Shown here piece after piece: positions 8,732-44,200 of a stretch of DNA of 64,000 nt; the first letter of the stretch is position 1; each line of letters opens with the position of its first letter. Made by a program: the position numbers and the translations under genes. The notes beneath the pieces were generated by a model that was given only the letters and a program-made list of their open reading frames with translations, was not told the origin of the DNA and did not search any database. Where the stretch lies: positions 23,322 to 87,321 of the forward strand of contig CACZXN010000004.1 of the NCBI GenBank assembly GCA_902785075.1, read 5' to 3'. The DNA is from an uncultured Bacteroidales bacterium. GTDB taxonomy: Bacteria > Bacteroidota > Bacteroidia > Bacteroidales > Bacteroidaceae.

Positions 8732-9916
8732 ATGAAAAGAAGAATGATAAAAAAACTAATGGGGCTTATGGGGCTAATGGGACCAATGAGGCCAATGGGC
8801 CTTATTTCACTAATGCTATTAGTGCCTACACTCACTCAGGCACAGCGTTTGGATGATGTGGAAATACCCAGCAAATATATTATTGCGGTAGATGAATACC
8901 GACCCGCACCTGGTCAATATGTGAATGATGTGCCGGAATATGAACCAGGAGATACTGAACAAGACATGATTAGGAAGTGTACCGAACGATTAGCCAACAA
9001 CGAACGTAGTTTGGTTGCACTAGGAGGTTGGGGAGGCTATATCACCTTCCATTTCGACCACTCAATTGCCAATATTCCTGGTCAGCGTGATTTTGCCGTA
9101 TGGGGAAATGCCTATCAAGAGATGAAGAACTTGGTGTTTGGAGGCATGAACGAGGCAGGCATCGTAATGGTATCTAAAGACGAGAACCAAAACGGCATTC
9201 CAGATGACCCATGGTACGAAATCAGCGGAAGCTGTGATATCGATAGCATAGGCAAAGTAGTTTATGACTACGAAGTGACATATCGACGTAACCCTATGGG
9301 TGACATCCCTTGGACAGACAACCAAGGAAATAGCGGAACGATAGACCGCAACCATTACCACACACAAGAGTACTATCCAGAATGGTTGCCCGATGAACTG
9401 ACATTTCAAGGCACACGGCTCCCCAACAATATGTGGAACCTATCCGAACATGTTGATGCAGGTTGGAGCCCCTATTACTATGTATTGGTAGGTTTTCGCT
9501 ATGGTTATGCAGACAACCTACCCAACTTCACGGATAAGTCAGATGCTACGTCCTACAATTATGAGGGATGCGGCATAGACATCTCATGGGCTGTAGATGA
9601 GCAACGTAAACCTGTCAATCTTGATTTTATCGACTTTGTCAGAGTCTACACGGGGTTGAACCAGAAGTGCCCTCAGCCAGAATGGTGGGGTGAAACCTCC
9701 ACAGAGTTTGCAGGAGCTGAGGATATGCATCTTGAAGCATCGTTAGAAGCCATCTACGCAGCTACCCTTGGCGTTAAGGAAGTAAGCAGTAAATCTTTGG
9801 GCAATACAAACTGCTATGACCTCCAAGGACGCAGAATTCAGTTGAAAGGCCAAACGAACATAACAATCAGCAAAGGCCTTTACATACAAGACGGAAAGAA
9901 ATTCATTATTAAATAA
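8732..9916 (+). CDS. Secreted cell-surface protein of the B12 operon with C-terminal sorting-like tail
   Basis: 394 residues, starting 1 bp after the btuG stop. The start at 8732 is chosen because it follows that stop and begins a signal peptide whose hydrophobic core is encoded by a 9-bp minisatellite (MGLMGLMGPMRPMGL, then ISLMLLVPTLTQAQ). The body has 'ALGGWGGYITFHFDHSI', 'DFAVWGNAYQ', 'EAGIVMVSKDENQNGIPDD' (possible calcium loop) and 'WYEISGS', a family seen as 'cell surface protein' in Bacteroidetes. The end 'CYDLQGRRIQLKG' ... 'ISKGLYIQDGKKFIIK' resembles Por/type IX secretion C-terminal signals. It may be an accessory corrinoid-binding or receptor-associated protein; that is inference from context only. 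Confidence 0.75.
   Translation: MKRRMIKKLMGLMGLMGPMRPMGLISLMLLVPTLTQAQRLDDVEIPSKYIIAVDEYRPAPGQYVNDVPEYEPGDTEQDMIRKCTERLANNERSLVALGGWGGYITFHFDHSIANIPGQRDFAVWGNAYQEMKNLVFGGMNEAGIVMVSKDENQNGIPDDPWYEISGSCDIDSIGKVVYDYEVTYRRNPMGDIPWTDNQGNSGTIDRNHYHTQEYYPEWLPDELTFQGTRLPNNMWNLSEHVDAGWSPYYYVLVGFRYGYADNLPNFTDKSDATSYNYEGCGIDISWAVDEQRKPVNLDFIDFVRVYTGLNQKCPQPEWWGETSTEFAGAEDMHLEASLEAIYAATLGVKEVSSKSLGNTNCYDLQGRRIQLKGQTNITISKGLYIQDGKKFIIK
8759..8803 (+). repeat. 9-bp minisatellite (5 units) encoding signal-peptide core
   Basis: Five consecutive units: ATGGGGCTT, ATGGGGCTA, ATGGGACCA, ATGAGGCCA, ATGGGCCTT, in the codon phase M-G-L/P. They form the hydrophobic stretch of the signal peptide of the gene starting at 8732. 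Confidence 0.95.
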
Positions 9917-9948
9917 CATTTTTATTCACTCATTAAATTCAAAGCATT

Positions 9949-10713
9949 ATGAAGACAAACAAGTTTATCATGCTTGCAGCTATCACATGTGGTGCTGCAT
10001 TCGTTTCTTGTAGTAACGAAGACATTCCTGTTCCTAATCCTGATGACGGAAAAATCGTCATTGGTTTCGAGAACGCCACACTCAATGCAGATGGTTTCTG
10101 GATTGGTAACACTGAAGGTACTCCATTCGACAACTGGGGTTCAACGGGTTACGCTTGCCAATACGAAGAGGCAGGTATTGCATTCCCCGTCAACTACACT
10201 CCTGATTGGGCCACTTGGACTGGATTCGCTATCTCAAGCCGCACTCAGACTACCTATGAGACGCTCACTCCTGACCAGTATAACAGCACCGTTGGTAAAG
10301 CTCATGGTGGCAACAACTACTGTATCGTTCAGACCTATGGCGAGAGCCTTGATTTCGAAACACCTGTCACCATTAAAGGTTTCTGGTACACTAACACCGC
10401 ATGGGTTGTGGATGCTATCCTGAATGGTGATGGCATGTCACCAGGCAAATTTGAGGCAGAAGACTTTTTCAAGTGTGTCCTCTATCCTACACCATCTAAC
10501 GGATTAAATGGCGGTGCTCGTTATGAAATTGATTTGGCAAAGGATGGCGACTATGTAAAGGAATGGAAGTACTGCGACCTGAGCAATGTTGATGCCTTCA
10601 AGAACATTTCAAGCCTCTCATTCGCCTTCGAAGGTTCAAAGACGAACAACTGGGGTCTCACTACACCAGCTTATATCTGTATCGACGATGTTGAGGTCGT
10701 TATAAAGAAATAA
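9949..10713 (+). CDS. DUF4465-type lipoprotein of the B12 operon
   Basis: 254 residues. Lipoprotein signal peptide ending 'GAAFVSC' (Cys21) followed by SNED, an acidic surface-export type signal. The mature part begins 'IVIGFENATL' and has 'GFWIGNTEGTPFDNWGSTGY', 'WTGFAISSRTQTTYE', 'HGGNNYCIVQTYG', 'IKGFWYTNTAWVVDAIL' and 'WKYCDLSNVDAFKNISSLSF', which I recognise as the DUF4465 pattern (beta-sandwich). It lies 32 bp behind the previous gene and just before a terminator, so it is the last gene of the riboswitch operon. Bacteroides B12 loci carry additional surface B12-binding lipoproteins; this could be one, but the link is contextual. Confidence 0.78.
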   Translation: MKTNKFIMLAAITCGAAFVSCSNEDIPVPNPDDGKIVIGFENATLNADGFWIGNTEGTPFDNWGSTGYACQYEEAGIAFPVNYTPDWATWTGFAISSRTQTTYETLTPDQYNSTVGKAHGGNNYCIVQTYGESLDFETPVTIKGFWYTNTAWVVDAILNGDGMSPGKFEAEDFFKCVLYPTPSNGLNGGARYEIDLAKDGDYVKEWKYCDLSNVDAFKNISSLSFAFEGSKTNNWGLTTPAYICIDDVEVVIKK

Positions 10714-10745
10714 CATCTTTCAATCAAAGATTGATTTCTGACTTT

Positions 10746-10772
10746 ACAAGGCGTCTCGTTGAGGCGCCTTGT
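10746..10772 (+). terminator. Rho-independent terminator of the B12 operon
   Basis: ACAAGGCG (10746-10753) pairs with CGCCTTGT (10765-10772); the inner CTC/GAG extends the stem with one T-G wobble, leaving a 3-base loop. TTG TTT CC follows. It lies 33 bp behind the DUF4465 gene. Confidence 0.85.
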
Positions 10773-10807
10773 TTGTTTCCTTAAAGATTTCACCTACAAG
10801 GATTGAA

Positions 10808-10851
10808 GTAAGGTAGTGGTAAGATAGTGGTAAGGTAGAAGTATAGGCTAA
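10808..10851. repeat. Short 11-bp tandem array (GTAAGGTAGTG type)
   Basis: GTAAGGTAGTG, GTAAGATAGTG, GTAAGGTAGAA and a degenerate fourth unit follow with exact 11-bp spacing between the operon terminator and the tRNA gene. Confidence 0.7.
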
Positions 10852-10880
10852 AAGATGGAATGGGTATCTCGTTTAAAATA

Positions 10881-10909
10881 AAAAAAAACGGACGACTGCC
10901 CGTTTTTTC
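10881..10909 (-). terminator. Terminator of the tRNA-Leu gene
   Basis: A-rich arm, ACGG ... CCGT stem and T-run flank each other just downstream (minus strand) of the tRNA. The symmetric A and T runs could also stop transcription from the left. Confidence 0.6.
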
Positions 10910-10913
10910 TTTG

Positions 10914-10995
10914 TGCGCCTGATAGGACTCGAACCTACACGCCGCGAAGCACCAGATCCTAAGTCTGGCGTGTCTACCAATTTCACCACAAGCGC
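10914..10995 (-). tRNA. tRNA-Leu (anticodon UAG)
   Basis: The minus strand folds as a class II tRNA of 82 nt: acceptor GCGCTTG / CAGGCGC with one G-T pair, D-arm 'TGGTGAAATTGGTAGACA', anticodon stem CCAGA/TCTGG with loop CTTAGGA (anticodon TAG), a variable arm 'TGCTTCGCGGCG', and T-arm 'TAGGTTCGAGTCCTA'. The 3' CCA is not encoded, as is common in Bacteroidetes. The long variable arm and TAG anticodon identify leucine. Confidence 0.96.
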
Positions 10996-11161
10996 ATGGT
11001 TTCTTTGTTAGCGGCTGCAAAGGTACGAAAAAAAACATAATTCAACATCCACAATTCTTAATTATCTACAAAAAAAGGTGTTTTTTTGAGTTTATGAAAT
11101 TATAATTTACAATTTTCTTCATTTTTAAAACACGAAAACATGATACCTATAAACATTTTTG

Positions 11162-11169
11162 TAACTTTG
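11162..11169 (+). promoter_or_regulatory. Bacteroidetes -7 box before the dipeptidase gene
   Basis: TAACTTTG lies 47 bp before the ATG at 11217 in otherwise AT-rich DNA. No clear -33 TTTG at standard spacing. Confidence 0.6.
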
Positions 11170-11216
11170 CAAGCGAAGAGAACAAACCTAAAATAATTCT
11201 TAACATCCTTTACTTT

Positions 11217-12017
11217 ATGAACAAGAAACCATTTAAGTCACCTGTGGTCAAACCCTTCTTACTCACCCTGATTGGTACGATGGTCTTTTGGTCTTGTCAA
11301 GAGGGAACTCCCAAAGTCAACCACACCGATGACAGCAGCCAGTTCGTGAATCTTACTGATGCTGTTCCTGATGCTATTTTGGAGATTCGCTATTATAGCA
11401 CCTACAATTTTGTAGGCGCCCGAATCGATGGTTATGAGGAACCGACTGCACTGATAACCCGCGTAGCAGCAGACAGTCTTCGTGCTGTGAGTGATGATGT
11501 GATTCAGTTAGGTTATCGTTTAAAAATCTATGATGCCTATCGTCCACAAAAAGGTGTAGACCATTTTGTACGTTGGGCAGCCAACGTCAGTGACACTCTG
11601 ATGAAGCCTTACTTTTATCCAGACCTTGACAAAAGCGTGCTTTTTGATCAAGAGTATATCATGGAAAAGAGTGGACATACACGCGGCTCAACCGTTGACA
11701 TTACCCTCTTTGACATGAACACAGAGAAAGAGTTAGATATGGGAGGGACCTTCGATTGGTTTGGTCCTGAGAGCCATCCCGACTTCTGTGGTAATCCCGA
11801 AACGGGTGAATACACAGGCGACAACAGCAAGAGTCCAACCGGACTTAGCATCACTGCCGAACAGTTTGCCAATCGTATGATACTTCGTCAGACCATGCTA
11901 CGTCATGGATTTAAGGCTCTTGACAGTGAGTGGTGGCACTTCACCCTTCTCAACGAACCTTTCCCTGATACCTATTTTACATTCCCAGTCAAAAAAATTA
12001 AAAATAAAGCGTTATGA
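11217..12017 (+). CDS. D-alanyl-D-alanine dipeptidase (VanX/DdpX family) lipoprotein
   Basis: 266 residues. It should hydrolyse D-Ala-D-Ala, a zinc peptidase of family M15D. The signal peptide ends 'MVFWSC' with lipobox Cys27. Family motifs: 'KIYDAYRPQ' (substrate Arg), 'SGHTRGSTVDITL' (zinc ligands His and Asp), and 'DSEWWHF' (catalytic Glu and third zinc ligand His). Lipid anchoring suggests a periplasmic place, so cell-wall dipeptide recycling is more likely than vancomycin resistance; no vanH/vanA partners are present. Its stop overlaps the start of the next gene (ATGA, 12014-12017), so the two are translationally coupled although functionally unrelated at first sight. Confidence 0.9.
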   Translation: MNKKPFKSPVVKPFLLTLIGTMVFWSCQEGTPKVNHTDDSSQFVNLTDAVPDAILEIRYYSTYNFVGARIDGYEEPTALITRVAADSLRAVSDDVIQLGYRLKIYDAYRPQKGVDHFVRWAANVSDTLMKPYFYPDLDKSVLFDQEYIMEKSGHTRGSTVDITLFDMNTEKELDMGGTFDWFGPESHPDFCGNPETGEYTGDNSKSPTGLSITAEQFANRMILRQTMLRHGFKALDSEWWHFTLLNEPFPDTYFTFPVKKIKNKAL

Positions 12018-13522: not shown

Positions 13523-13530
13523 CGGTAGTA

Positions 13531-14814: not shown

Positions 14815-14845
14815 ACGATTCTTGTTTTATTTTCATTTTTCATTG

Positions 14846-14853
14846 CAAAGATA
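14846..14853 (-). promoter_or_regulatory. -7 box of murF
   Basis: TATCTTTG on the minus strand, 32 bp before the murF start; fits TAnnTTTG. Confidence 0.65.
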
Positions 14854-14896
14854 CAAAATAATTCATAATTCATCATGCATAATTCATAATTATTCG

Positions 14897-14904
14897 TATC
14901 TTTG
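14897..14904 (+). promoter_or_regulatory. -7 box of folP
   Basis: TATCTTTG on the plus strand, 37 bp before the folP ATG. Between the two divergent boxes lies a short AT-rich stretch with 'AATTCATAAT' repeated three times. Confidence 0.65.
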
Positions 14905-14940
14905 CAGCAAATATTGTATAAAAAGAATAAATAAGGTGCA

Positions 14941-15792
14941 ATGAGCAACATTTGTGTTCCATATACCATTAATGTAGGCGGTCAGTTATTAGACCTCTCA
15001 TCCCCTTGTGTGATGGGTATTGTCAATGTGACGCCCGACTCATTCTACACCAGCATCTCCCCAACAGCATCCTCATTTTCAGATGCCATCAAGCATCAAG
15101 TCCGTACAATGCTGGATGAGGGAGCCCTCATCATCGACATCGGTGGATGTTCCACTCGTCCTGACAGCGAACCCGTCAGCATAGAGGAAGAACAAAAACG
15201 TCTGGCTCCTACCCTTGATGTCATTCGTCATGCATTCCCAGACTGCATTCTCTCAGTCGACACTTTCCGTCCAGACATCGCAACATGGTGCATCAACGAG
15301 TATGGAGTTCACATTATCAACGACATCTCTGGTGGTAATCAAGCGATGTACGATGTGGTTGCCCAAACTGGAGCACCTTATATACTGACCTTCAACGAAC
15401 CCCGCAACAACGACATGGATATCTGTCAGCAAGCATTGTTGTTCTTTGCCGACAGAATCCAGCAACTACGCAACCGAGGTGCAAAAGACTTTATCCTGGA
15501 TCCCGGGTTCGGTTTCAACAAGACTCTTGATGAGAACTATCAATTGTTAAACAACCTAGAAAGCCTCCACATTCTGGAGTTACCCATCTTGGTTGGCATA
15601 TCTCACAAGAGCATGATTTATAAGCTATTAGAAACAACTCCTTCGGAAACCCTCAACGGAACCACAATACTCCACACAATCGCTTTGAGTAAAGGAGCTA
15701 ACATCCTCCGGGTACATGAAGTGAAGGAAGCCATGGAGTGTATCAAGTTAACAGAGAAGACCCATAAGCCCTATGAGACCCATGAAGCCTAA
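14941..15792 (+). CDS. folP: Dihydropteroate synthase
   Basis: 283 residues. It joins p-aminobenzoate to the pterin diphosphate in folate synthesis. Motifs: 'VMGIVNVTPDSFY' (pterin-binding start), 'IIDIGGCSTRPDS', 'ILSVDTFRPD', 'INDISGG', 'ILDPGFGFNKT' and 'LVGISHKSMI' (Lys of the SxK region). The protein ends in an unusual Thr/His/Pro/Glu tail ('THKPYETHEA') that is encoded by a few units of the 9-bp minisatellite in reverse orientation, so the natural C-terminus probably ended a little earlier. cdaA follows after 24 bp. Confidence 0.95.
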   Translation: MSNICVPYTINVGGQLLDLSSPCVMGIVNVTPDSFYTSISPTASSFSDAIKHQVRTMLDEGALIIDIGGCSTRPDSEPVSIEEEQKRLAPTLDVIRHAFPDCILSVDTFRPDIATWCINEYGVHIINDISGGNQAMYDVVAQTGAPYILTFNEPRNNDMDICQQALLFFADRIQQLRNRGAKDFILDPGFGFNKTLDENYQLLNNLESLHILELPILVGISHKSMIYKLLETTPSETLNGTTILHTIALSKGANILRVHEVKEAMECIKLTEKTHKPYETHEA

Positions 15793-15795
15793 TAA
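15760..15795 (-). repeat. 9-bp minisatellite at the folP 3' end
   Basis: GACCCATAA, GCCCTATGA, GACCCATGA, AGCCTAATA: four degenerate units, the reverse complement of the ATGGGGCTT type, encoding the last ten residues of FolP and the stop. Confidence 0.8.
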
Positions 15796-15816
15796 TAACT
15801 CAAAATAACAGAAACA

Positions 15817-16581: not shown

Positions 16582-16582
16582 A

Positions 16583-16637
16583 GAAAGGACTAGAAAGACT
16601 AGTGGGACTAGTGAAACTAGTTAAACTAGAGAAACCA
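16583..16637 (+). repeat. Diverged 9-bp minisatellite (AGTGGGACT type)
   Basis: Six units of 9 bp (GAAAGGACT, AGAAAGACT, AGTGGGACT, AGTGAAACT, AGTTAAACT, AGAGAAACC) fill the gap between cdaA and the GH105 gene. Same period as the other arrays, different unit sequence. Confidence 0.85.
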
Positions 16638-16647
16638 GAAAAAACAT

Positions 16648-17820
16648 ATGAGAATCTTATTACTTACAATCATTGCTTTGGGCAGCCTGACACTCAGTGC
16701 GAAAAAAGTCAAGTTGCCAGAGAAAAAAGAAGTATTGGCAGCCATGGAGTTAGCCAACAGCTATTTCATCACCAAGCATCCAGATGCAGGAGCACCCACG
16801 AACGTTAAGAAAATGCGTCCCAGCAACCTGTGGACCCGTGGAGTTTATTTTGAAGGGCTCGTTGCTCTTACCGATATTGAGCGCACGATTGGTGCTCAGA
16901 AATACGAGCAGAACAACCAATATCTTTACGATTGGGCATCCTACCACGAATGGATACCACGAAACGGAGTCAAGACCCGCGATGCCGATGATTACTGTTG
17001 CTGCCAATCCTATTTATCCATGTTCTTGAACGGCCAAGTAACATTCTACACACCAACCATGCAATGCATGGATAACTTACTGCGCACCCCAGAAAGTGTA
17101 GGCGATTGGACATGGATTGATGCAATCCAAATGGGACTGCCCGTACTCACAAAACTCTCACTCGTAAAAGCGAAAGAAGGAGATGATGCCTTTAGTCGCT
17201 ATACTCAGCATGGGTGGAAGATGTACAGATATACCCGCGATGTCCTTGCCGGAGGCCTGTTTAACAAAGAAGAAGGACTATGGTGGCGCGACAAAGACTT
17301 TATCCCTCCCTATAAAGAGCCTAATGGTCGCAACTGCTATTGGAGTCGTGGAAACGGATGGGTCTATGCTGCCTTGGTTCGAGCCATGCAAGACATCATG
17401 GATATCCCCAACTACGATGAATTCCTTGATGAATACAAAGGAGATTTCATCAAGATGAGTGAAGCACTCAAGAATTGTCAGCGGAAGGACTATTTTTGGA
17501 ATGTCAGTCTGCACGATGAAAGTAATTTTGGAGGTAAGGAGTTAACAGGAACCTCCCTCTTTATCTATGGTATGGCTTGGGGCATCCGTCACAAACTCCT
17601 CGACAGCAACATCTACCTTCCCATAGTGGCCAATACATGGAATGCAATGGTGAAGGATTGCTTGCATAAAGACGGTTTCCTCGGATATGTACAAGGAACA
17701 GGTAAGCAACCCAAAGACTCACAACCTGTCACATACGACAGTGAACCCGACTTCGACGACTTCGGGCTCGGTTGTTTCTTGCTGGCAGGAAGCGAAGTAT
17801 ATCAATTATGCGAAAAATGA
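16648..17820 (+). CDS. Glycoside hydrolase family 105/88 (unsaturated rhamnogalacturonyl or glucuronyl hydrolase)
   Basis: 390 residues with a signal peptide (MRILLLTIIALGSLTLSA). The alpha/alpha-barrel family is recognised by 'LWTRGVYFEGLVAL', 'DADDYCCCQSYLSMF', 'DWTWIDAIQMGLPVL' (containing the conserved catalytic-type Asp), 'YWSRGNGWVYAALVRAM' and 'LTGTSLFIYGMAWGI'. Such enzymes remove the unsaturated uronic acid from lyase products of pectin (rhamnogalacturonan) or related glycans, here in the periplasm. A GH2 enzyme and a DUF4837 lipoprotein follow in the same direction, but no SusC/SusD pair or lyase is in view. Its end overlaps the next gene by 13 bp. Confidence 0.87.
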   Translation: MRILLLTIIALGSLTLSAKKVKLPEKKEVLAAMELANSYFITKHPDAGAPTNVKKMRPSNLWTRGVYFEGLVALTDIERTIGAQKYEQNNQYLYDWASYHEWIPRNGVKTRDADDYCCCQSYLSMFLNGQVTFYTPTMQCMDNLLRTPESVGDWTWIDAIQMGLPVLTKLSLVKAKEGDDAFSRYTQHGWKMYRYTRDVLAGGLFNKEEGLWWRDKDFIPPYKEPNGRNCYWSRGNGWVYAALVRAMQDIMDIPNYDEFLDEYKGDFIKMSEALKNCQRKDYFWNVSLHDESNFGGKELTGTSLFIYGMAWGIRHKLLDSNIYLPIVANTWNAMVKDCLHKDGFLGYVQGTGKQPKDSQPVTYDSEPDFDDFGLGCFLLAGSEVYQLCEK

Positions 17821-18815
17821 GAAGAATGAGATTAATGGGGCTTATGGGGCTCATAGGGCTTATGGGGCTAATGGGGTGTGAATCATCTCATAAGCCAGCA
17901 GCATCCAGCCATGTAACCACCGACAGTGCTCCCTACGAGCTGTTACTGATTGCAGACAAAGACTGGTTGAAAACTGCTGAAGGCACTGTCGTGATGGAGA
18001 AACTGAATGCCTATATCTTAGGATTGCCACAACAAGAAAGCAATTTCAAGATTATCAGCATCAATCCAGAGGCTTTCAGTACAACATTTCAAGGATTTGC
18101 CAATATCCTTAAGATCGATATCAACCCGAAATACTCTAAAGCGTCTTTCAAAGTTGTTCAAGATATCTACGCACACCCTCAGACCGTAGTCTATCTCACT
18201 GCAGCTGATGGAAAAGCCATGGCAGACATGGTAGTTACACGTTCACAGCAAATCATCGATTTGTTCGTCAATGCAGAACTGAAGAAAGAACAGGCAAACC
18301 TCAGACGAACCTATAGCGACAAAGTAAGACGTCAAGTTCAGCAGCAGTTCGGATATGACATCTATGCTCCGAAGGAAATCAATGCAGTCAAGCCTGGTAA
18401 GGATTTCATGTGGGCATCCTCCAACCAACTTGACAACCGGCTCAACATCTGTGTGTACACATATCCTTACGTTTCGGATGAAGGTCTTTCTGAGGAACAC
18501 TACATTGCCATCCGAGATTCGTTTATGCGTCAGAATATCCAAGGAGAACATGCGGGACAATACATGAAGACCAATCCAGATTTCGTTTTCATCCGTACCA
18601 TCACGGTAAACGGTCATCAGGTCATGGAAGCCCGCGGATTGTGGGAGATGGAGAACGACATGATGGGTGGTCCGTTTGTATCTTACTCGCAGATTGACTC
18701 AGCCAACAATAGAGTGATTGTAACTGAAGGGTTCGTCTATGCACCAGAAAAGAAAAAGCGTCCACTCATCCGACGGCTGGAAGCTGCCATCCAAACGTTC
18801 GAAATCAAGAAATAA
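17808..18815 (+). CDS. DUF4837 family lipoprotein
   Basis: 335 residues from the ATG at 17808, which lies within the last codons of the GH105 gene. Start choice: it opens a basic leader (MRKMRRMR) followed by a minisatellite-encoded core (LMGLMGLIGLMGLMG) and lipobox Cys24. The mature protein matches my memory of DUF4837: 'YELLLIADKDWLKTAEG', 'FKIISINPEAF', 'YAHPQTVVYLTAAD', 'WASSNQLDNRLNICVYTYPY', 'TRGLW'-like 'EARGLWEMENDMMGGPFVS'. The function of the family is unknown. Position between two glycan enzymes may be chance, since the family occurs widely in Bacteroidetes. Confidence 0.82.
   Translation: MRKMRRMRLMGLMGLIGLMGLMGCESSHKPAASSHVTTDSAPYELLLIADKDWLKTAEGTVVMEKLNAYILGLPQQESNFKIISINPEAFSTTFQGFANILKIDINPKYSKASFKVVQDIYAHPQTVVYLTAADGKAMADMVVTRSQQIIDLFVNAELKKEQANLRRTYSDKVRRQVQQQFGYDIYAPKEINAVKPGKDFMWASSNQLDNRLNICVYTYPYVSDEGLSEEHYIAIRDSFMRQNIQGEHAGQYMKTNPDFVFIRTITVNGHQVMEARGLWEMENDMMGGPFVSYSQIDSANNRVIVTEGFVYAPEKKKRPLIRRLEAAIQTFEIKK
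17826..17879 (+). repeat. 9-bp minisatellite (6 units) encoding a lipoprotein signal peptide
   Basis: ATGAGATTA, ATGGGGCTT, ATGGGGCTC, ATAGGGCTT, ATGGGGCTA, ATGGGGTGT. The last unit contains the lipobox Cys codon (TGT). Confidence 0.95.
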
Positions 18816-18821
18816 AGCCCT

Positions 18822-18911
18822 ATGAGCCCAATAAGCCCTATGAGACCCATAAGTCCCATAAGTCCCATGAGTCCCATGAGTCCCATGAGTCCCATGAGCC
18901 TAATAAGTCCA
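18822..18911 (-). repeat. 9-bp minisatellite (about 10 units) in reverse orientation
   Basis: Units such as AGTCCCATG and AAGTCCCAT fill the gap between the DUF4837 and GH2 genes. Read forward it is open and in frame with the GH2 gene (MSPISPM...), but it would put a Ser/Pro-rich leader in front of a complete signal peptide, so I treat it as non-coding. Confidence 0.92.
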
Positions 18912-18920
18912 ACAAGTAAT

Positions 18921-29924: not shown

Positions 29925-29962
29925 AAAGGCCAATAAGGCCCATGAGGCCAATGAGACCCATC
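29925..29962 (-). repeat. 9-bp minisatellite before the DUF5119 gene
   Basis: About four units (GGCCAATAA, GGCCCATGA, GGCCAATGA, GACCCATCA) in the leader of the DUF5119 gene. Confidence 0.85.
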
Positions 29963-29978: not shown

Positions 29979-31214
29979 ATGATGCCCAACAACCGACATA
30001 ACATCTTCGCAGCAGCATGGCAGCAGTCATGCCGCTGGGGACATTCTGTACGCCGTCAGACAGCCAGTCTGTTGGCAGCTGTTGTTGTGAGTACCTTATT
30101 TTTCACGCTTGCGTGCGAGCGCGAGCCTGTTCTCCACCTCCACGAGGGTGCAGAACCAATAGATATCAACATTCCAATCATCAACCTCGACCTCTCAACC
30201 TACTGGGACTATGAGTTCGTCTATGGTGTGACCTACGACTGGAAGGCAGAGTGGTATTACGGATGGGATGCGATAGACTACCAGATCTTCGGAAATATCG
30301 GATATACCGAGCCAAAGGTATTCAACCTACGTAGATACTTCACCTTCCACATCCCATTCGCTCCTCACACACAGGTGATTGCCAACACCGTCACAGGAAA
30401 CTCCTTCCAAGGAAAGTACAATTTCGGTTTCTGGGACCTGCTCGTTTGGAACGACGTGGTTACCATCGATGGAATTCAGAGTTTGAACTTCGACGAATCC
30501 ACAACACTTGACTATGTAACGGCTTACACCAACCAGACCATGGTTCCGACCCGATATCAGGCTCCGAAATACACCCGTGCATTCTACGAACCCGAGGCAC
30601 TCTTCTCAGCCTATGAACAGGCCATCGAAGTCAACGAAAACCTTGACGGATTCGAGTACGATCCTGTGCGCGATTTGTGGGTCAAGCGTTTGGACATGCT
30701 TTTGAAACCTGTAACTTACATTTATCTCCCACAGATTATTCTGCACAACAACCATAACAAGATTGTCAACGTAGATGGATCGGGCAACCTCTCTGGAATG
30801 GCCCGTACGGTGAACATCAACACAGGTATATCTGGTTCAGATGCCGTCACCGTCCACTACAATGTGCGATTCAAGCCATACTGCCTCAAAGACCAAGAGG
30901 TGGTCGACATCATCGGAGGACGCCTCATGACCTTCGGAATGTGCGACCTCAATCCAAATGCCATCACACGGCAGGAAGATATACCAGAAAATCGTCGTCA
31001 CTTCATGGATGTCACCATGCTGTTCAACAACGGTATCGACTCCACCTTCGTGTTCGACGTAACCGACCAAGTAAGGCAGAAGTACAAAGGAGGGGTGCTC
31101 ACCATCGAACTCGATATGGACACCATCCCAGTTCCATCACGATCAGGAGGCTCTGCCTTCGATGCCGTTGTGAAAGACTACGAAGATGGAGGAACCCACG
31201 AATTTGAGATGTAA
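29979..31214 (+). CDS. DUF5119 lipoprotein
   Basis: 411 residues. An N-terminal basic stretch and hydrophobic core (SLLAAVVVSTLFFTLAC) end at a lipobox Cys. The body has 'INIPIINLDLSTYWDYEF', 'FHIPFAPHTQVIANTVTG', 'YTNQTMVPTRYQAPK', 'VTYIYLPQIILHNNHNKI' and 'GMARTVNINTGISGSDAVTV', which I recognise as DUF5119 from Bacteroidales fimbrial loci. It may be an anchor or accessory subunit like Mfa2/FimB, but that is inferred from position between the DUF3575 and fimbrillin genes. Confidence 0.8.
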   Translation: MMPNNRHNIFAAAWQQSCRWGHSVRRQTASLLAAVVVSTLFFTLACEREPVLHLHEGAEPIDINIPIINLDLSTYWDYEFVYGVTYDWKAEWYYGWDAIDYQIFGNIGYTEPKVFNLRRYFTFHIPFAPHTQVIANTVTGNSFQGKYNFGFWDLLVWNDVVTIDGIQSLNFDESTTLDYVTAYTNQTMVPTRYQAPKYTRAFYEPEALFSAYEQAIEVNENLDGFEYDPVRDLWVKRLDMLLKPVTYIYLPQIILHNNHNKIVNVDGSGNLSGMARTVNINTGISGSDAVTVHYNVRFKPYCLKDQEVVDIIGGRLMTFGMCDLNPNAITRQEDIPENRRHFMDVTMLFNNGIDSTFVFDVTDQVRQKYKGGVLTIELDMDTIPVPSRSGGSAFDAVVKDYEDGGTHEFEM

Positions 31215-31215
31215 A

Positions 31216-31257
31216 ACCCATAAGGCCCATGAGCCCAATAAGCCCCATGAGCCCAAT
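31216..31257 (-). repeat. 9-bp minisatellite between DUF5119 and first fimbrillin gene
   Basis: Units ACCCATAAG, GCCCATGAG, CCCAATAAG, CCCCATGAG, CCCAATCAA directly after the DUF5119 stop. Confidence 0.88.
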
Positions 31258-31272
31258 CAAACAAGAAAACAA

Positions 31273-35385: not shown

Positions 35386-35394
35386 TACCAATTT

Positions 35395-35423
35395 GCCAGG
35401 TGGGGTTCGACTCCCCTCCTGGT
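35395..35423 (+). other. tRNA T-arm-like hairpin behind fimbrillin-like gene 2
   Basis: GCCAGG-T-GGGG, loop TTCGACT, CCCC-T-CCTGGT: ten pairs with one T-T mismatch. Stem and loop equal a tRNA T-arm on an acceptor-like stem, but no D or anticodon arm is present. It begins 9 bp after the stop and might end or protect the mRNA. Confidence 0.7.
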
Positions 35424-35504
35424 AGCAAAAACCCAATCCCAAGGGTGAGGGTCTGAGACGAAAAAAACGAACTCAAAAAAGGCGACGGTCGCACGGGTTC
35501 AGTT

Positions 35505-35569
35505 CGCAGTTACCTCGCAGTTACCTCGCAGTTACCTCGCAGTTACCTCGCAGTTAAGTCGCAGGTAAG
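35505..35569. repeat. 11-bp tandem array (CGCAGTTACCT)
   Basis: Four perfect CGCAGTTACCT units (35505, 35516, 35527, 35538) followed by CGCAGTTAAGT and CGCAGGTAAG. It lies in the 262-bp gap between fimbrillin-like genes 2 and 3; apart from the hairpin before it I see no gene there. Confidence 0.95.
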
Positions 35570-35647
35570 AAAAGGGCGATAAGCTCACCAACAAAAGAAA
35601 CAAAACTCAAATGAGAATAAATAAATAATAAAGTATAATTATTAAAA

Positions 35648-37810: not shown

Positions 37811-37832
37811 CCCCAGATTATCATTCAATAAC

Positions 37833-37872
37833 CCATCATTAGCTCAGCGGGGTTCGACTCCCCGCTGGGTAA
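37833..37872 (+). other. Truncated tRNA-like element behind fimbrillin-like gene 3
   Basis: CTCAGCGGGG (37843-37852) pairs over ten positions with CCCCGCTGGG (37860-37869), loop TTCGACT. Upstream 'ATTAGCTCAG' equals the D-arm start of many tRNAs, so this looks like a tRNA whose D loop, anticodon arm and variable region are missing. No T-run follows. Confidence 0.7.
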
Positions 37873-37899
37873 CAAAAGAAAGAAAGGCCCAGAAAAAAC

Positions 37900-37950
37900 C
37901 ATAGGTCACATAGGTCACATAAGTTACATAGGTCTCATGAGACCCATAAA
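37900..37950 (-). repeat. 9-bp minisatellite (CATAGGTCA type)
   Basis: CATAGGTCA twice, then CATAAGTTA, CATAGGTCT, CATGAGACC, CATAAAC. Located in the 163-bp gap before the fused gene. Confidence 0.88.
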
Positions 37951-37973
37951 CAAGCAAAAAAGATCAAATCAAA

Positions 37974-39764
37974 ATGGAAGCTCCAAAAACATTCCTCCCA
38001 AAGGGTGGCGGTTATGAAAACCTAACGGTGTACAAAAAGGCTACGATCATCTACGACCTGACCTTCTACTTCACTAACAGGTTCCTAACCAAGGGCGACC
38101 GTACCATCGACCAGATGGTGCAGGCCGCACGCTCGGGTAAGCAGAATATTGCCGAAGGGAGTGCAGCCAGTTCCACCTCGTCAGAGACGGAACTGAAGCT
38201 GATGAATGTGGCACGCGCCAGCATGCAGGAGCTGTTAGTGGACTATGAGGACTACCTGCGAGTGCGCAACCTACTTCTGTGGCCGCTTCAAGACGAACGA
38301 GCAGTCAGAACCCGGGAGTTCTGCAAGACTCACACTGAAGTAGCCCATTACATGACCGACATTGAACGGCGCTCCGACGAAGCTTTAGCCAACATCGCCA
38401 TCACGCTCATCCACCAGTTCGACAACATGATGGGCAAGCTACTGGACCGTCTGCAGACGGACTTCGTCGAAAAAGGCGGCATCCGCGAGCAGATGACAGC
38501 AGCCCGTCTGGGCTACCGCAATGAGCAGAAGGACCACATTGCGAAGCTGGAGGCAGAGAACCACCACCTGAAAGCCCGCATCGCGGAGCTTGAGCAAAAG
38601 CTCAAGGGGCCAATGAGGCTCATAGGGATGATAAGCCTCATGGGGCTTATGGGGCTTATGAGTTGCTCGAAGGAACAGGTGGAGGAGCCTGTACTGCAGG
38701 AAGCCATCTGTTTCAATGGAGGACTGCAGGAGAACTCCGACATCACTGCCGGTACACGTGCTGAAGAAGGAACCCCGCTATCCGACCTTGCTAACACCTT
38801 CCAGGTATGGGCTTTCAAGAACATGAGCTATGAGGAAAGTACAGAATCCTACGCAGCACTTCAAGAAGTCATGCATGACTACACTGTGAACTGGAGAGAG
38901 AACAGCGCCAACACCACCACAAGCAACAGCAGTGGTTGGGAATACGTCAATCAACAACCCAGTGGCAGAACAGAACAAAGTATCAAGTACTGGGACCTCA
39001 GCGCCAAGGCATATAAGTTCTTCGGTTATGTACTACCTACGACTGGTGCTGTGGAAGTAGAGTTCTATAAGTCCAATGGGACTGATGGGGCTTATGAGGC
39101 TTATGAGGTTAATGGGAATTACAGCAAATGCCGCATGAGCTTCACGACAGATGCTCGTGAGGAAGCAGCTGCACCATACTTCTCCAAGTTATGGTTTAGC
39201 AATAACTCCCCAGGAAGTGAACATATCTACCCCAGCATGGTGAAGATGCAGTTCTTCAAGCCTTTCGCCAAGGTACGTTTTATGTTCAAGTTTGCGGCCC
39301 CCGACGAACCGATATTGATTGAATTGCCACATTTCTTCCCAACTAATCAAGGACGTCAGATTCACTTGAGCGGAACGTTCAGACTCATCTATCCTCTAAC
39401 AGGAGACGAGACGAAAGAGAGTTGGGAAACAGAGGACATCACCTATGCAATGGCAGCATTCACACAGGACTACTACGAAGCAGCCGCAAACGAGACAGAC
39501 GAAACGGTGTTAGCAAACCAAAAGCACTGGTACACCGTCCTGCCAGCTAAGAATCAAGGGGCTTACACCCTCACGGTACGTGTGAACGGAGAAGAGCGCG
39601 CCTGCTATGTGCCTGCCGAATATATGGATTGGCTACCTGGATACAGCTATACATATATCTTCAAGGTGAACGAAGATGGAGGTGTCAAGTTCGATGCCAT
39701 CAACATAGCATTCACGGACTGGCAAGGAAATACGGAGAAAGAGAAAATCGTGTATAACTGGTGA
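37974..39764 (+). CDS. Four-helix-bundle protein fused in frame to fimbrillin-like lipoprotein 4
   Basis: One open frame of 596 residues. Residues 1-160 look like the four-helix bundle of the S23/23S rRNA-intervening-sequence family ('LTVYKKATIIYDLTFYFTNR', 'TIDQMVQAARSGKQNIAEG', 'MNVARASMQELLVDYEDYLR'); 160-212 is a helical suffix ending in a coiled coil ('IAKLEAENHHLKARIAELEQ'). From Met214 an entire lipoprotein begins: minisatellite-encoded signal core, lipobox Cys231, 'GTRAEEG' with an Arg processing-like site, and a fimbrillin-like body with 'FFKPFAKVRFMFKFAA' and 'YSYTYIFKVNEDGG'. No stop or frameshift separates them. A cytoplasmic helical domain in front of a signal peptide is hard to reconcile with export, so an internal start at 38613 is likely used, or the junction is recent. 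Confidence 0.75.
   Translation: MEAPKTFLPKGGGYENLTVYKKATIIYDLTFYFTNRFLTKGDRTIDQMVQAARSGKQNIAEGSAASSTSSETELKLMNVARASMQELLVDYEDYLRVRNLLLWPLQDERAVRTREFCKTHTEVAHYMTDIERRSDEALANIAITLIHQFDNMMGKLLDRLQTDFVEKGGIREQMTAARLGYRNEQKDHIAKLEAENHHLKARIAELEQKLKGPMRLIGMISLMGLMGLMSCSKEQVEEPVLQEAICFNGGLQENSDITAGTRAEEGTPLSDLANTFQVWAFKNMSYEESTESYAALQEVMHDYTVNWRENSANTTTSNSSGWEYVNQQPSGRTEQSIKYWDLSAKAYKFFGYVLPTTGAVEVEFYKSNGTDGAYEAYEVNGNYSKCRMSFTTDAREEAAAPYFSKLWFSNNSPGSEHIYPSMVKMQFFKPFAKVRFMFKFAAPDEPILIELPHFFPTNQGRQIHLSGTFRLIYPLTGDETKESWETEDITYAMAAFTQDYYEAAANETDETVLANQKHWYTVLPAKNQGAYTLTVRVNGEERACYVPAEYMDWLPGYSYTYIFKVNEDGGVKFDAINIAFTDWQGNTEKEKIVYNW
38613..38666 (+). repeat. 9-bp minisatellite at the fusion junction
   Basis: ATGAGGCTC, ATAGGGATG, ATAAGCCTC, ATGGGGCTT, ATGGGGCTT, ATGAGTTGC: six units that both join the helical domain to the lipoprotein and encode its signal peptide. 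Confidence 0.92.
38613..39764 (+). CDS. Fimbrillin-like lipoprotein 4, alternative internal start
   Basis: If translation begins at Met214 of the fused frame, the product is a normal 383-residue lipoprotein: MRLIGMISLMGLMGLMSC with lipobox Cys18, then SKEQVEEP. The first ten mature residues are almost the same as those of the next gene (CSKEQVEEV), pointing to duplication. Which start is used cannot be decided from the DNA; both are listed. Confidence 0.55.
   Translation: MRLIGMISLMGLMGLMSCSKEQVEEPVLQEAICFNGGLQENSDITAGTRAEEGTPLSDLANTFQVWAFKNMSYEESTESYAALQEVMHDYTVNWRENSANTTTSNSSGWEYVNQQPSGRTEQSIKYWDLSAKAYKFFGYVLPTTGAVEVEFYKSNGTDGAYEAYEVNGNYSKCRMSFTTDAREEAAAPYFSKLWFSNNSPGSEHIYPSMVKMQFFKPFAKVRFMFKFAAPDEPILIELPHFFPTNQGRQIHLSGTFRLIYPLTGDETKESWETEDITYAMAAFTQDYYEAAANETDETVLANQKHWYTVLPAKNQGAYTLTVRVNGEERACYVPAEYMDWLPGYSYTYIFKVNEDGGVKFDAINIAFTDWQGNTEKEKIVYNW
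39075..39119 (+). repeat. 9-bp minisatellite inside a mature domain
   Basis: AATGGGACT, GATGGGGCT, TATGAGGCT, TATGAGGTT, AATGGGAAT encode NGT-DGA-YEA-YEV-NGN, so the same DNA unit is read in a phase different from that in signal peptides. Confidence 0.88.
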
Positions 39765-39820
39765 GGCCAATGGGGCTCATGGGGCCAATGAGGCTAATAG
39801 GGCCAATGGGGCCAATGAGA
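39765..39820 (+). repeat. 9-bp minisatellite between lipoprotein genes 4 and 5
   Basis: About six ATGGGGCCA-type units right after the stop of the fused gene. Confidence 0.9.
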
Positions 39821-39841
39821 AAAAAGAAAAAAGAAAAAAAG

Positions 39842-41194
39842 ATGACAAAAACAAACGACATAAAGAGCAAGGTGATGAGAATCATGAGGCCAATGGGGCT
39901 TATGGGGCTAATAGGGCTTATGGGGCTTATGGGGCTCATGGGTTGCTCGAAGGAGCAGGTGGAAGAGGTGCGTCGTTCTGCTTCTGCAGAGTTGATGTCG
40001 TATGCAACGATTTTCACCGATGAGGATCCTAACTCACAAAGTGAAACCAGAAGGGCGGTGGTTTGGCCTCCAGACGGTTACAAACTCTACAAGGATTTAA
40101 CAGGTGCGGACGCTGTAATGATGTCGAACGAGAATGCAGCTATCGGTGTGTTCTTCACGCAGGATTCACCAACAAAGGTAGAGACGCGTAAGTTCAGGTA
40201 TGTTGGCGGCAATGATGCTCAGTGGCGCATGAACGAGGAGTTGGAAAGCGGAGGAGAATACTATCTTTATGGTTATATACCACTTGACGCAGCGAGTGTG
40301 AGCATTCAGCCTGACGCAACGACTGGCAACTATGCTGATGGAGCACAACTGACATTCACGGGATTGAGCAGTGTGATGAATAAAGATATATGTGTGATGG
40401 TAGGTGCAAAGGAAGGAACTACCGCAAATAGTGCAGACACCTATCATGAAGTAACAGATGTGACTGAGGGAACAACTACCGTTACAGGTTTATACGAAAA
40501 AAATGGAAATGATTATGTACTAACGGCAGACACAAAAGCTCAAAGTGGCAAAACCTACTATCGGAAAGATTTCTTGGCTACCGGTAAGTTCGATGTTGAC
40601 ATCAACGTAGGTGAGAATGCACATAACAATCTCTTCCTGCTGTTCGACCATATCTACTCAGCCTTGAGTTTCCGGTTTAAGATCAGTACTAAGTACCATC
40701 AGTTACGTGACATCAAGCTGAAAAAACTTGAGTTGATTGCATATAACGATGCCAATTTCAAGACAAAGATGAAGAAATATCAAAGTGCAACCATCACACT
40801 TAAGGCAACAACCGACGGGTCCTCCCCTATGCCGAGCAACATTACCTTCACGCCAGACAACAGCAGTGGAGACATCGGATATATACTTATCTACGAGGAT
40901 TTGGAGAACCCCTATCTACTGAAAACTAACGATGATTCAGAAATGATTGGTTTCGTGCCTCGAAATGCGAATTACTTCATGTTGCGCTCTACATACGATG
41001 TTTATGACAGGTCCGGGAATCTCGTCCGCAAGGACTGTATGGCAGAGAATAAAATAAACCTGCCTTATCTGTTCAACCAAGATCAATTGGAATACGGACA
41101 CCGATATATCATCAGGCTCCTCGTTGAGCCCACCTACCTATACCAGCTCTCGGATCCAGACTTGGACAACCCGACGATAAAGGTGGGCAGTTAG
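39842..41194 (+). CDS. Fimbrillin-like surface lipoprotein 5
   Basis: 450 residues from 39842; Met at 39875 is an alternative start. A polar leader is followed by a signal core of eight minisatellite units (MRPMGLMGLIGLMGLMGLMG) and lipobox Cys in 'LMGC', then SKEQVEE. The body includes 'WPPDGYKLYKDLTGADAVMM', 'SGGEYYLYGYIPLDAASV', 'NNLFLLFDHIYSALSFRFKI' and 'RYIIRLLVEPTYLYQLSDPD', typical of the Mfa-like group. A module 'LYEKNGNDYVLTADTKAQSG' with 'KTYYRK' is inserted in the middle, similar to modules in gene 2. Probably a minor or tip subunit; role inferred from position. Confidence 0.78.
   Translation: MTKTNDIKSKVMRIMRPMGLMGLIGLMGLMGLMGCSKEQVEEVRRSASAELMSYATIFTDEDPNSQSETRRAVVWPPDGYKLYKDLTGADAVMMSNENAAIGVFFTQDSPTKVETRKFRYVGGNDAQWRMNEELESGGEYYLYGYIPLDAASVSIQPDATTGNYADGAQLTFTGLSSVMNKDICVMVGAKEGTTANSADTYHEVTDVTEGTTTVTGLYEKNGNDYVLTADTKAQSGKTYYRKDFLATGKFDVDINVGENAHNNLFLLFDHIYSALSFRFKISTKYHQLRDIKLKKLELIAYNDANFKTKMKKYQSATITLKATTDGSSPMPSNITFTPDNSSGDIGYILIYEDLENPYLLKTNDDSEMIGFVPRNANYFMLRSTYDVYDRSGNLVRKDCMAENKINLPYLFNQDQLEYGHRYIIRLLVEPTYLYQLSDPDLDNPTIKVGS
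39875..39955 (+). repeat. 9-bp minisatellite encoding the signal peptide of lipoprotein 5
   Basis: Nine units from ATGAGAATC to ATGGGTTGC, most of them ATGGGGCTT or ATAGGGCTT; the last holds the lipobox Cys codon. Confidence 0.95.
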
Positions 41195-41195
41195 A

Positions 41196-41241
41196 GGGCC
41201 AATATGCCCAATGAGGCCAATGGGGCCAATGGGGCCAATGA
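41196..41241 (+). repeat. 9-bp minisatellite before the giant gene
   Basis: GGCCAATAT, GCCCAATGA, GGCCAATGG, GGCCAATGG, GGCCAATGA: five units in the leader of the giant gene. Confidence 0.9.
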
Positions 41242-41272
41242 GACAAAAAAAAGAACAAAAGAACAAAAGACA

Positions 41273-44200
41273 ATGATAAAGAGCAAAGACATAATGATGA
41301 TAAAGAAGCTCATGGGGCCAATGGGGCTTATGAGGCTTATGAGGCTCATTAGGCTCATGGGGCTTATGGGGCTGATAGGCTTTATGGGGCTTCAGCCTTT
41401 GATGGCACAGGATGCAGCACAGGATGAGCCGAAGCCTATCATCGTGAAAGGAAATGTTTACGGCGGTGGTAATAAGGGTAAGGTAGATGGCAACACCACT
41501 GTAACTGTTGTGAGCGGAGACCTGCATATGGTCTTCGGAGGTGCCCGCATGGCTGATGTGGGAGGTCGTAGCTTTGTCAACATCGATGGTGAGAACACCA
41601 CAGAATATATCATGGCTAATCAGGTCTATGGAGGAAACGACATCTCCGGAACAATCGGTGAAGGTAGTGTTGAGACCACAGTCCCAGCGGAACTGACGGC
41701 AGTGAAACGAACAGACGCAGATGCCAACAACCCGAAAAAGAATGAGATAGACAACACATGGAAGTCTTTTGTACGTGTCAGTGGTAATAATGAAGATATC
41801 GTATCTGCGACAGCAACCACCTCTACCAAACATGCTGTCTATATCGGTGCCCTCTTCGGTGGTGGTGATGGCGAATACGAATATACAGATGAAGACGGAG
41901 ATCCACTCAAAGATGAGAACGGTCACTATTACGTTAACAAAGTCAAGAAAGAATACAATACTTCCACACAACAACAAGTTATTACAAGAACCAAAATCGC
42001 TACTCGCGAAACACCATTTAATCTCCCGACACTCAGGAAGACCTACCTGGAAATCAATGGAGGTTCTATTGTCTATGCCTTCGGTGGAGGAAACAATGCC
42101 ACTGTGACTGAAGCGACTGTCATCAATGTGGACAACCCGACCAAAGTGGTCAGCAGTATTAAAGACCCAAACAATCCTAACAAGCGCGTTTCGGATAATG
42201 AATTGTTGACTTCCGAACGAATCTTGGAAATGGGCATCAACCCTGGTCTGAGCCATCCGAACAGCGATGCATTCCAGATTGGTAGCCTCTTTGGAGGAAA
42301 CAACAACACAGCAATGGCCATCATGCCAACCTGGAATCTGCAGTCAGGTTTGATTCGTAATGTATATAGTGGAGGTAACCGAGGTGATATGATTTCATCA
42401 AAAGGTCTTCTGCTGAAAATCGCCCCTGCAGAGATGAACGGAGAGAATGAGCATGACCTTGCAAAGAACGACCATCCGTTGGTCATTGACAACGTCTATG
42501 GAGGATGTCGTATAGCTGACGTACGTCCGATGGAGTTGAAAAATGGCGAATACAAAGACGTGGAACAAGTCTATAACCTCGAAGGTTATAAATTCCCGCA
42601 TAATCTGGCAGCCCGTACGTTGATCTATGGTGGTGACATCAATAATGTCTATGGAGGTAACGATATCCGTGGAAAAGTTTACTTTGGAAATGCCTTAGGT
42701 ATTTATACTAGCGTACGCGGTAATATCTACGGAGGAGGAAACGGTTCGTATGCCTATACAGACAACCCTGTTAATCAGTATAACCCAACCTATGGTGACC
42801 TTTATTATAATCCAGGCACTAACTCTGTTGAAGCCCTCACCGAGTTGCGTCCACATGCCGAGCAGGTATGTATTCGTTTGGCAGGTACGGAAGCTAAGAA
42901 GACCATTATCCATGGTTCTGTCTTCGTGGGAGGAAACTGTGCAACACTGAAGAAGGACGAAAGCCATAAAGACCTCGCTTCTTATCCGCTTGTGGACTTG
43001 AAAATGGGATCACATGTCATTGCAGAGAATGTCTTCCTGGGCAACAATGGAGAAAAAATGGTAGCCTACAATAAAACAGGAAAAGACAACGCAGGTAAAG
43101 ACGAGAAAGATGCGTTGGAAGGCGTTCTGTTAACAATGAAAAAAGAAGGTTTCAGTTCCATCGACCTTCAAAACCCAACGACTTTTGCCCATTATATGGA
43201 GGGTGCTGCCATGGATTTAATTCCAAAGGTGTCTTTCGATGATGAACTACGTGGCGACCCAGCCACCTACATTCCTTACTCAAGTCAGGTTGGTTCGCTT
43301 TACTTGGGAGGTAACGTAGGTAGTATGACCTACGCTGGCAAAAACGCCATGACACTCAACGCACCTGTCTATATATATAATAAGGTGGTTGGCGGTTGTA
43401 ACAATGCCGATGTACCAAAGACGGAATATAATGCAGCCTACGAAGGAGGTATCTTAGGAACTCCTTCAGAACTAGCGAGCGATGGGTTATTTAGAGAAGG
43501 AAAAGAAGCCAGTGGTGCCATCCAAAACCGACTGGAACTGAACTTCAATGGTACACGTATCCGTCCGCAACGATGGGCTCGTGATAAAAACACTGGTGAG
43601 TACTCACTCAATTATTTGGGTCAGGAATATTTGGAGTGGAACACCAAGGTATGGGACGAGACTTCAGAAAGTTTTGAGGATACCGATGTCGGTTATGGAG
43701 ACAATACCAGTGCCGACCACGATCGTCGATTGATTGGAGGTAATGTATATGGTGGTTGCTACAATACCGGTCACGTGAACGGTAATGTAGTAATCAACAT
43801 CAACTCCGATGTGTACGAACGCGATGTGCTATTTGCCAAGACTGCTACAGACGAGAATAATATCACATCCATCGTTGACGATCCTGTTGAAGACACCCGT
43901 CGCACTGGTGTCATCATAGAGAATCAACGCAATGACTTGATGGCAGTAGGCTTATCAATCTTCGGTGCAGGTAAAGGTTTAGGTACTGAGATATGGGGTA
44001 GCACCACCGTCAACCTGAATAAAGGTTATGCCTTCCAAGCTTACGGTGGTGGCGAAGAAGGTTATGTAGGTAAAGGAACCATCGTCACAGACAGCGAAAG
44101 CAACACACAATATGATACCGACGGCTTTATTCAGAAAGCCTATAACGATTACGATGCGGCTTACAGCTCCACAGTCAACCTGAACGGAACCAAAACTGTT

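Follow-up and report, generated by a model that had tools for sequence, protein, structure and literature searches.

The stretch analysed here (the window) comprises 64,000 nucleotides of contig CACZXN010000004.1 from an uncultured Bacteroidaceae bacterium (assembly GCA_902785075.1), a draft genome of 2.9 Mb in 105 contigs designated G000. Among its genes are folP, a gene for a DUF4837 lipoprotein followed by a GH2-type gene, and a fimbrial locus. Within and between these genes lies a family of tandem repeats with a 9-bp unit, ATRRGNCYN, in which near-palindromic cores (RRGNCYY) are linked by AT. With a minimum of three units of the form AT-N-R-G-N-C-Y-N, a threshold that leaves out two-unit arrays at 15757 and 37928, 11 arrays are counted in the window and none in 40 shuffled windows. 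Two tandem units (ATGGGGCTTATGGGGCTT, at most three mismatches) match the window 33 times, against a mean of 0.03 and a maximum of one in 100 dinucleotide shuffles. Because the unit approximates its own reverse complement at the purine/pyrimidine level, a single array can be hit on both strands at once, and matches therefore outnumber arrays. The program TRF (Tandem Repeats Finder) run on the window recovers the same 9-bp arrays. With head-to-tail units at several loci the arrays resemble minisatellites, or variable-number tandem repeats, and unit number at the same site also differs, as seen between species only. The 11 arrays and the two shorter ones are as follows.

8759–8803, forward strand: five units; signal-peptide core of the 8732–9916 gene, apparently expanded relative to the related genomes G001, G003 and G013.
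15757–15783, forward strand: short array at the folP 3' end, encoding a C-terminal extension; under the three-unit threshold.
17808–17879, forward strand: signal peptide of the DUF4837 lipoprotein with 9-bp periodicity; matching units at 17835–17870, Cys codon at 17877–17879.
18822–18911, forward strand: ten units in the gap between the DUF4837 and GH2-type genes.
29933–29959, forward strand: three units; intergenic, 19 bp past a stop codon.
31220–31255, forward strand: four units just past the stop at 31214; hydrophilic open frame 5' of the next gene's probable start.
37928–37945, forward strand: two matching units within a TRF array at 37900–37948, upstream of 37974.
38613–38657, forward strand: signal-peptide core of a fimbrial-locus lipoprotein, in frame with an upstream 23S_rRNA_IVP-like protein.
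39067–39102, forward strand: four units, within the mature 38613 lipoprotein; hydrophilic frame.
39770–39814, forward strand: five units immediately past the stop codon at 39764.
39884–39937, forward strand: six units; signal-peptide core of the 39842 lipoprotein.
41211–41237, forward strand: three units past the stop codon at 41194.
41312–41392, forward strand: eight units; signal-peptide core of a very long protein ending at 54370.

A sequence-only reading of the window had proposed that a 9-bp repeat family supplies signal-peptide DNA to five genes (8732, 17808, 38613, 39842 and 41273) in one codon phase and is elsewhere intergenic. The shuffles and the positions bear out this observation: the five arrays lie where it placed them, and those near 18822, 29925, 31216, 39765 and 41196 are close behind the preceding gene's stop codon. 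Two arrays had been overlooked, that at 39067–39102, which translates as hydrophilic YKSNGTDGAYEAYEVN, and that of folP at 15757–15783, which adds some ten residues (THKPYETHEA) to FolP. Variation among interior units is concentrated at positions 3, 4, 6, 8 and 9. A1, T2, G5 and C7 are kept at 83–100% across intergenic and open reading frame (ORF) sets from three genomes, with one nine-unit set (G5 89%) as an exception, although these figures are biased because the arrays were picked by that very motif. Strictly palindromic units were considered and rejected, as units lean toward GGGNCTT-like or AAGNCCC-like forms in small counts.

In the five signal-peptide genes the arrays run in a single phase as MKRRMIKKLMGLMGLMGPMRPMGL.., MRKMRRMRLMGLMGLIGLMGLMGC, MRLIGMISLMGLMGLMSC, MRIMRPMGLMGLIGLMGLMGLMGC and MIKKLMGPMGLMRLMRLIRLMGLMGLIGFMGL... 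The basic n-region, hydrophobic core and lipobox or cleavage site were recognised by eye only; the homologs are lipoprotein-like. An apparent lipobox Cys codon directly follows the array in the genes at 17808, 38613 and 39842. The description of the five genes as encoding five unrelated protein types was overstated: the 38613 and 39842 genes are identical, as judged by eye, at 22 of the 24 bases from the Cys codon onward (CSKEQVEE), and so one of their signal peptides was probably copied from the other.

Codon choice in these cores is unusual. GGG accounts for 20 of the 24 Gly codons in the five cores versus 5.3% of 1,549 in window genes, a contrast that excludes ordinary codon usage. Position 6 is G in 0.89 of the 27 G000 signal-peptide units; when intergenic units of G000 are counted on the two strands together, the share is 0.20 for G and 0.20 for C. 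Among window units with G at this position, the ratio of CTN to CCN codons is 21:3 in signal peptides versus 4:9 in other arrays (p 0.0008). The higher Leu content of G000 signal-peptide units than of comparable units outside suggests selection after recruitment, and is in our view a modest indication that their hydrophobicity is selected.

DUF4837 provides the clearest comparison, since the gene is present in 17 of 17 congeners, with a homolog of at least 45% identity in 15, of which that in G005 is cut off before the N-terminus. The 14 readable N-termini comprise arrays in G000 and G013, a single unit (MIPIRPIRIILFMSILLLAAC) in G006, and ordinary lipoprotein-like starts in the remaining 11 (G002, G003, G004, G007, G008, G009, G010, G011, G012, G015 and G016), three of which hold one chance unit. 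G012, the genome with the most pattern matches, has the start MKQTALFVALLVMVLLTSC. In G001 and G014 an N-terminus is readable only in DUF4837 paralogs (38 and 30% identity), and no arrays occur there. The nearest labelled homologs found in genome contigs, with identities of 81, 76, 74 and 68%, belong to metagenome assemblies of Bacteroidaceae or Bacteroidales, of which two are by title from rumen or reticulum.

The gene at 8732 has the core LMGLMGLMGPMRPMGL in G000, RIIGFIGSM in G001 and RLIGLM in both G003 and G013, corresponding to five units in G000 versus one or two degenerate units in the other three; the more distant homologs in G009 and G011 have unrelated cores. Either, then, an initial one or two units multiplied in frame in G000, or units were lost in the relatives. 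The array of the 38613 lipoprotein is longer in G013, whereas the homolog in array-poor G010 has SLISLIGLIGLIGC and those in G006, G007 and G012 have none. The window ORF at 41204–54370 (4388 aa, fimbrial locus), with no Pfam match in its first 1242 residues, has a G013 homolog that likewise begins with an array. Across these comparisons unit numbers at corresponding sites differ between species while the frame is kept, as predicted for a unit whose gain or loss causes no frameshift. Array-free relatives with other signal peptides, together with the codon contrast, also uphold the proposal that the DNA repeat rather than the peptide evolves as the unit; between species we found neither fixed unit numbers nor the same peptides encoded without DNA repeats.

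The wider survey covered 73 arrays in the window and in fetched stretches of G000, G012 and G013, the G000 stretches being drawn from 100 of its 117 three-unit matches and those of G012 from the matches listed. Genes were called with our own codon-score script rather than a standard gene finder, and signal peptides were labelled by hand. Forty-six arrays are intergenic, 13 lie in a 5'-side open frame upstream of or at a called start, eight are in signal peptides and six are inside proteins. Signal-peptide arrays make up 5 of 26 in G000, 3 of 22 in G013 and, among the matches listed, 0 of 25 in array-rich G012. Of 45 gaps between tandem genes that hold one array, 35 have it closer to the upstream stop, nine closer to the downstream called start, and one is a tie; in 19 the array begins within 10 bp of the stop codon. 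Divergent gaps represent 1 of 56 array-bearing gaps versus 19 of 157 array-free ones (p 0.03). These gap statistics take in signal-peptide arrays, because the gene caller places starts behind them.

Each strand of an array offers one nearly stop-free, hydrophobic frame (stops in 4 and 3 of the 73 arrays; mean Kyte-Doolittle 0.86 and 1.04), which reads M/I-G/R/S-L/P, and one hydrophilic frame (mean -1.63 and -1.72) interrupted by stops in 21 and 34 arrays; the remaining two frames contain stops in 69 and 58. Signal-peptide arrays are read in the hydrophobic frame, and the interior arrays mostly as hydrophilic peptides (39067 in the window; L057, L087, L088 at 11549, L090 and L097 in the fetched stretches). 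Arrays may also join genes. ORF 37974–39764 runs in one frame from a 23S_rRNA_IVP-like protein (E 4.5e-6, under that family's cut-off) through an array into the lipoprotein, as does its counterpart in G013 (L098); in G010 the homologous proteins are split by a stop codon. Stretches of G323 and G218, genomes from two further genera, similarly contain intergenic arrays past stop codons as well as arrays in hydrophilic or hydrophobic ORF frames. In G218 a hydrophilic-frame array (L185, 3086–3148) lies inside a 1341-aa ORF, where it directly precedes an apparently epimerase-like LLLTGATGLLGS start; two genes may have fused here by way of the array.

A scan of the genome and its relatives, as the sequence-only reading had proposed, found a patchy distribution. 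The three-unit pattern is present in 8 of 17 congeners and 50 of 399 genomes of the family. It was found in none of 24 other genera represented by one genome each, although other species of two such genera do carry it. Ten genomes from four genera have at least 30 matches (G000, G012, G013, G213, G226, G218, G256, G323, G353 and G393; for G353 and G213 we have match counts only). In six syntenic congener stretches totalling 115 kb (L041, L042, L043, L044, L046 and L051) TRF detected no period-9 array, and decayed units persist in L041 and L046. Some sites are thus vacant in close relatives: folP ends array-free in L041 and in L051, as does the gap between DUF4837 and the GH2-type gene in L051.

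Several array sites are nevertheless common to species and thus not newly invaded. Sites in G000 and G012 correspond with both flanks homologous (L056 with L068, L064 with L083) or one flank homologous (L061 with L069, L060 with L078), in addition to two weaker cases at 38–40%. Most window array sites have G013 counterparts with arrays, and the pair L082 and L099 links G012 and G013. At the DUF4837 and fimbrial-locus sites both G000 and G013 have arrays with different units, and units at sites common to several species are largely dissimilar. The phenomenon also exceeds one motif. The mirrored pattern used as a control by the search tool is itself abundant in other genomes and so is no neutral control, and a second near-palindromic 9-bp family, TANTCNGAR, occurs in each of the six genomes examined for its presence (G042, G090, G275, G331, G220 and G263; loci L142–L159 and L192–L198). 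Five of six G275 arrays of this family are intergenic and one is in a hydrophilic (SEYSEY) frame.

We interpret these arrays as an intergenic minisatellite family that has occasionally been exapted as signal-peptide DNA, which on balance is probably correct. The distribution and position of the arrays, the array-free relatives, the in-frame difference in unit number and the codon contrast support it directly. Arrays reside in short gene gaps, mostly within about 25 bp past a stop codon, in this Bacteroidaceae species and some relatives, and would be tolerated behind stop codons while the sequence and number of units change fast, presumably through slippage or recombination between units. Where an array borders the 5' end of a secreted-protein gene, or grows from a seed within it, its hydrophobic frame could replace or lengthen the signal-peptide core; the encoded signal peptides would function in export, and selection would then act on the recruited units. 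At a gene's 3' end an array could lengthen the protein or join two genes. The sequence-only observation is confirmed, and its interpretation is partly supported.

Several points weigh against this interpretation. The apparent changes in unit number come from comparisons between species, each represented by one genome. The gap statistics rest on our own gene caller, whose choice of starts leaves arrays out. The homolog of the 38613 lipoprotein in array-poor G010 has a ISLIGLIGLIGC signal peptide, so cores of this kind can occur in a genome almost free of the family. The Leu excess of G013 signal-peptide units is small (0.71 vs 0.59), and the CTN:CCN comparison includes units that, sharing an array, lack independence, while of its 13 units from other arrays two belong to the coding array at 39067. 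Exaptation also offers no source for a common motif at dozens of unrelated gaps; by our own estimate, which is not a computed figure, chance two-unit seeds would arise about once per genome. A broader proposal is that Bacteroidaceae contain several genome-specific near-palindromic 9-bp families (ATRRGNCYN and TANTCNGAR) with some positions constrained, seeded and maintained at gene ends by a sequence-reading factor or copying process, and repeatedly supplying stop-free hydrophobic DNA that gives rise to novel signal peptides, to tails at protein C-termini and to fused genes. We put this forward tentatively and consider it rather doubtful at present.

The intergenic arrays could instead be functional RNA, with units pairing into long interrupted hairpins that protect or end transcripts, so that pairing is selected and signal-peptide use is incidental. 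Positions past stop codons fit such a role, and arrays of at least five units are more stably folded than their dinucleotide-shuffled versions (mean z -2.5 for eight intergenic arrays of G000, -3.2 for 17 of G012 and -1.9 for three of G013). In addition, G-rich units tend to lie on the left and C-rich units on the right of intergenic arrays, a gradient that is positive in 16 of 20 and negative in three arrays in G012 (z 3.9), with z of 1.65 in G000 and 1.35 in G013. However, folds are hardly better than those of permuted unit orders (mean z -0.64 in G012, +0.17 in G000 and -0.12 in G013), fetched ORF-overlapping arrays fold about equally well (mean z -3.5 in G000 and -2.0 in G013), and no T run was seen 3' of intergenic arrays in the junctions inspected. 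Pairing alone does not account for recurrence of the motif, and arrays are missing from most family genomes. An RNA role is plausible but receives little support from unit order, and as an explanation of the family we think it possible without expecting it to hold.

Other explanations fare worse. That signal-peptide supply and length tuning are the reason the family is kept, the strong form of the sequence-only reading, would accord with the share of signal peptides among G000 and G013 arrays, most of the G013 cases corresponding to those of G000. Yet only 8 of 73 arrays serve this purpose, with none in the fetched stretches of G012; most are intergenic near stops, interior arrays are read in other frames, and all five G000 cases among the matches listed fall within the window, making this reading very improbable. 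The idea that the arrays are merely a conserved hydrophobic peptide encoded in the usual codons has in its favour the core common to the G003 and G013 homologs of the 8732 gene, but it is contradicted by the GGG contrast and by the occurrence of the same unit in intergenic DNA, and the different peptides of DUF4837 homologs refute it for that gene; we give it almost no credence. Mobilisation of the arrays by a Y1/HUH transposase of the type associated with repetitive extragenic palindromic (REP) sequences, together with REP hairpins, was suggested by a G013 hairpin, CCCCCTTTAGGGGG, found directly 5' of 9-bp arrays or within signal-peptide DNA (L098 at 3031, 4266, 4352 and 5673; L099 at 3112). 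The window also encodes a 397-aa protein (54383–55576), without a Pfam match at E 0.001, that by eye looks Y1-transposase-like. Neither the window nor the 13 further G000 stretches contain a copy of the hairpin, and the 21 stretches read from G012 have none. In a comparison of 17 congeners, several of them incomplete genomes, Y1_Tnp matches do not track arrays, being absent in G000, G001 and G014, weak in G012, and strong in G013 and in array-poor G005, G007, G003 and G010; diverged relatives of the 397-aa protein in 8 of the 16 other congeners do not track them either. Since the G000 and G012 data point toward array sites with neither hairpin nor transposase, this mechanism appears unlikely.

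Transport by phages was also considered and rejected: a search of viral contigs for one exact three-unit pattern, hence one subfamily, returned eight stretches, all with GAD-/GAN-type runs in longer ORFs (near the ORF end in L241 and L248). A different hairpin, CCCCTCCCTCTATGGAGGGG, is present at L046 9898, L051 9895, L058 8368 and L095 4461, and fills the gap upstream of DUF4837 in L046 and L051. Other tandem arrays in the window are located at 35504–35564 and 55633–55857 (periods 11, 22 and 7 bp), and 7-bp arrays built from many distinct units occur in the fetched loci too.

Precedents have been published both for short tandem repeats located in gene gaps and for a repeat that contributes part of a signal peptide. 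TAACTGA heptamer direct repeats are described in Beggiatoaceae, cyanobacteria and five Bacteroidetes (PMC4679880). As portrayed in the relevant passages of that source, they resemble the present family in being short tandem units at many loci, patchy, mostly intergenic and sometimes at the ends of coding sequences, with shorter repeat-free gaps in close relatives and no known spreading mechanism. According to the same passages, however, they have a 7-bp unit that in the best-studied genome lies mostly just 5' of start codons, whereas the unit here is a degenerate 9 bp mostly past stops; and forward TAACTGA repeats stop in all three frames, unlike ATRRGNCYN arrays, which have stop-free frames. 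The short tandemly repeated repetitive (STRR) sequences of filamentous cyanobacteria are similarly intergenic, hairpin-capable and of unknown function, but their units are usually 7 bp and coding use does not appear in the passage concerned (PMC2670836). Our arrays share the many intergenic loci and the patchiness of these repeats without the heptamer unit, and are thus similar in kind rather than members.

Yersinia YAPL/RU-2 and other miniature inverted-repeat transposable elements (MITEs) provide examples of repeat DNA joined to genes in frame, including YPO1552, a putative exported protein whose signal peptide is partly made by a YAPL/RU-2 element, but in the source's account such elements are single insertions of about 100–200 bp (PMC2229807), whereas here tandem unit number alters core length. 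We noticed no 100–200 bp unit with terminal inverted repeats in the array junctions inspected, where no search aimed at MITEs was made. REP sequences and bacterial interspersed mosaic elements (BIMEs) are likewise palindromic repeats between genes with suggested roles in termination or mRNA stability, but are 20–40 bp palindromes associated with REP-associated tyrosine transposases (RAYTs; PMC2817692, PMC3733652). Our arrays have no palindrome of that length as the repeat, and no RAYT association was found: across the 17 congeners compared, their presence does not track a Y1-type transposase gene. Among the titles and abstract openings listed from open-licence literature we found no account of the ATRRGNCYN family, and our searches of that literature turned up no report of a tandem array whose in-frame unit number alters a signal-peptide core.

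These arrays would provide a comparative case, complete with array-free relatives, in which noncoding tandem repeats become signal peptides whose cores change by three-residue steps. They draw attention to repeat families at gene ends, and may represent a route to rapid evolution of the secreted and surface proteins of gut bacteria.

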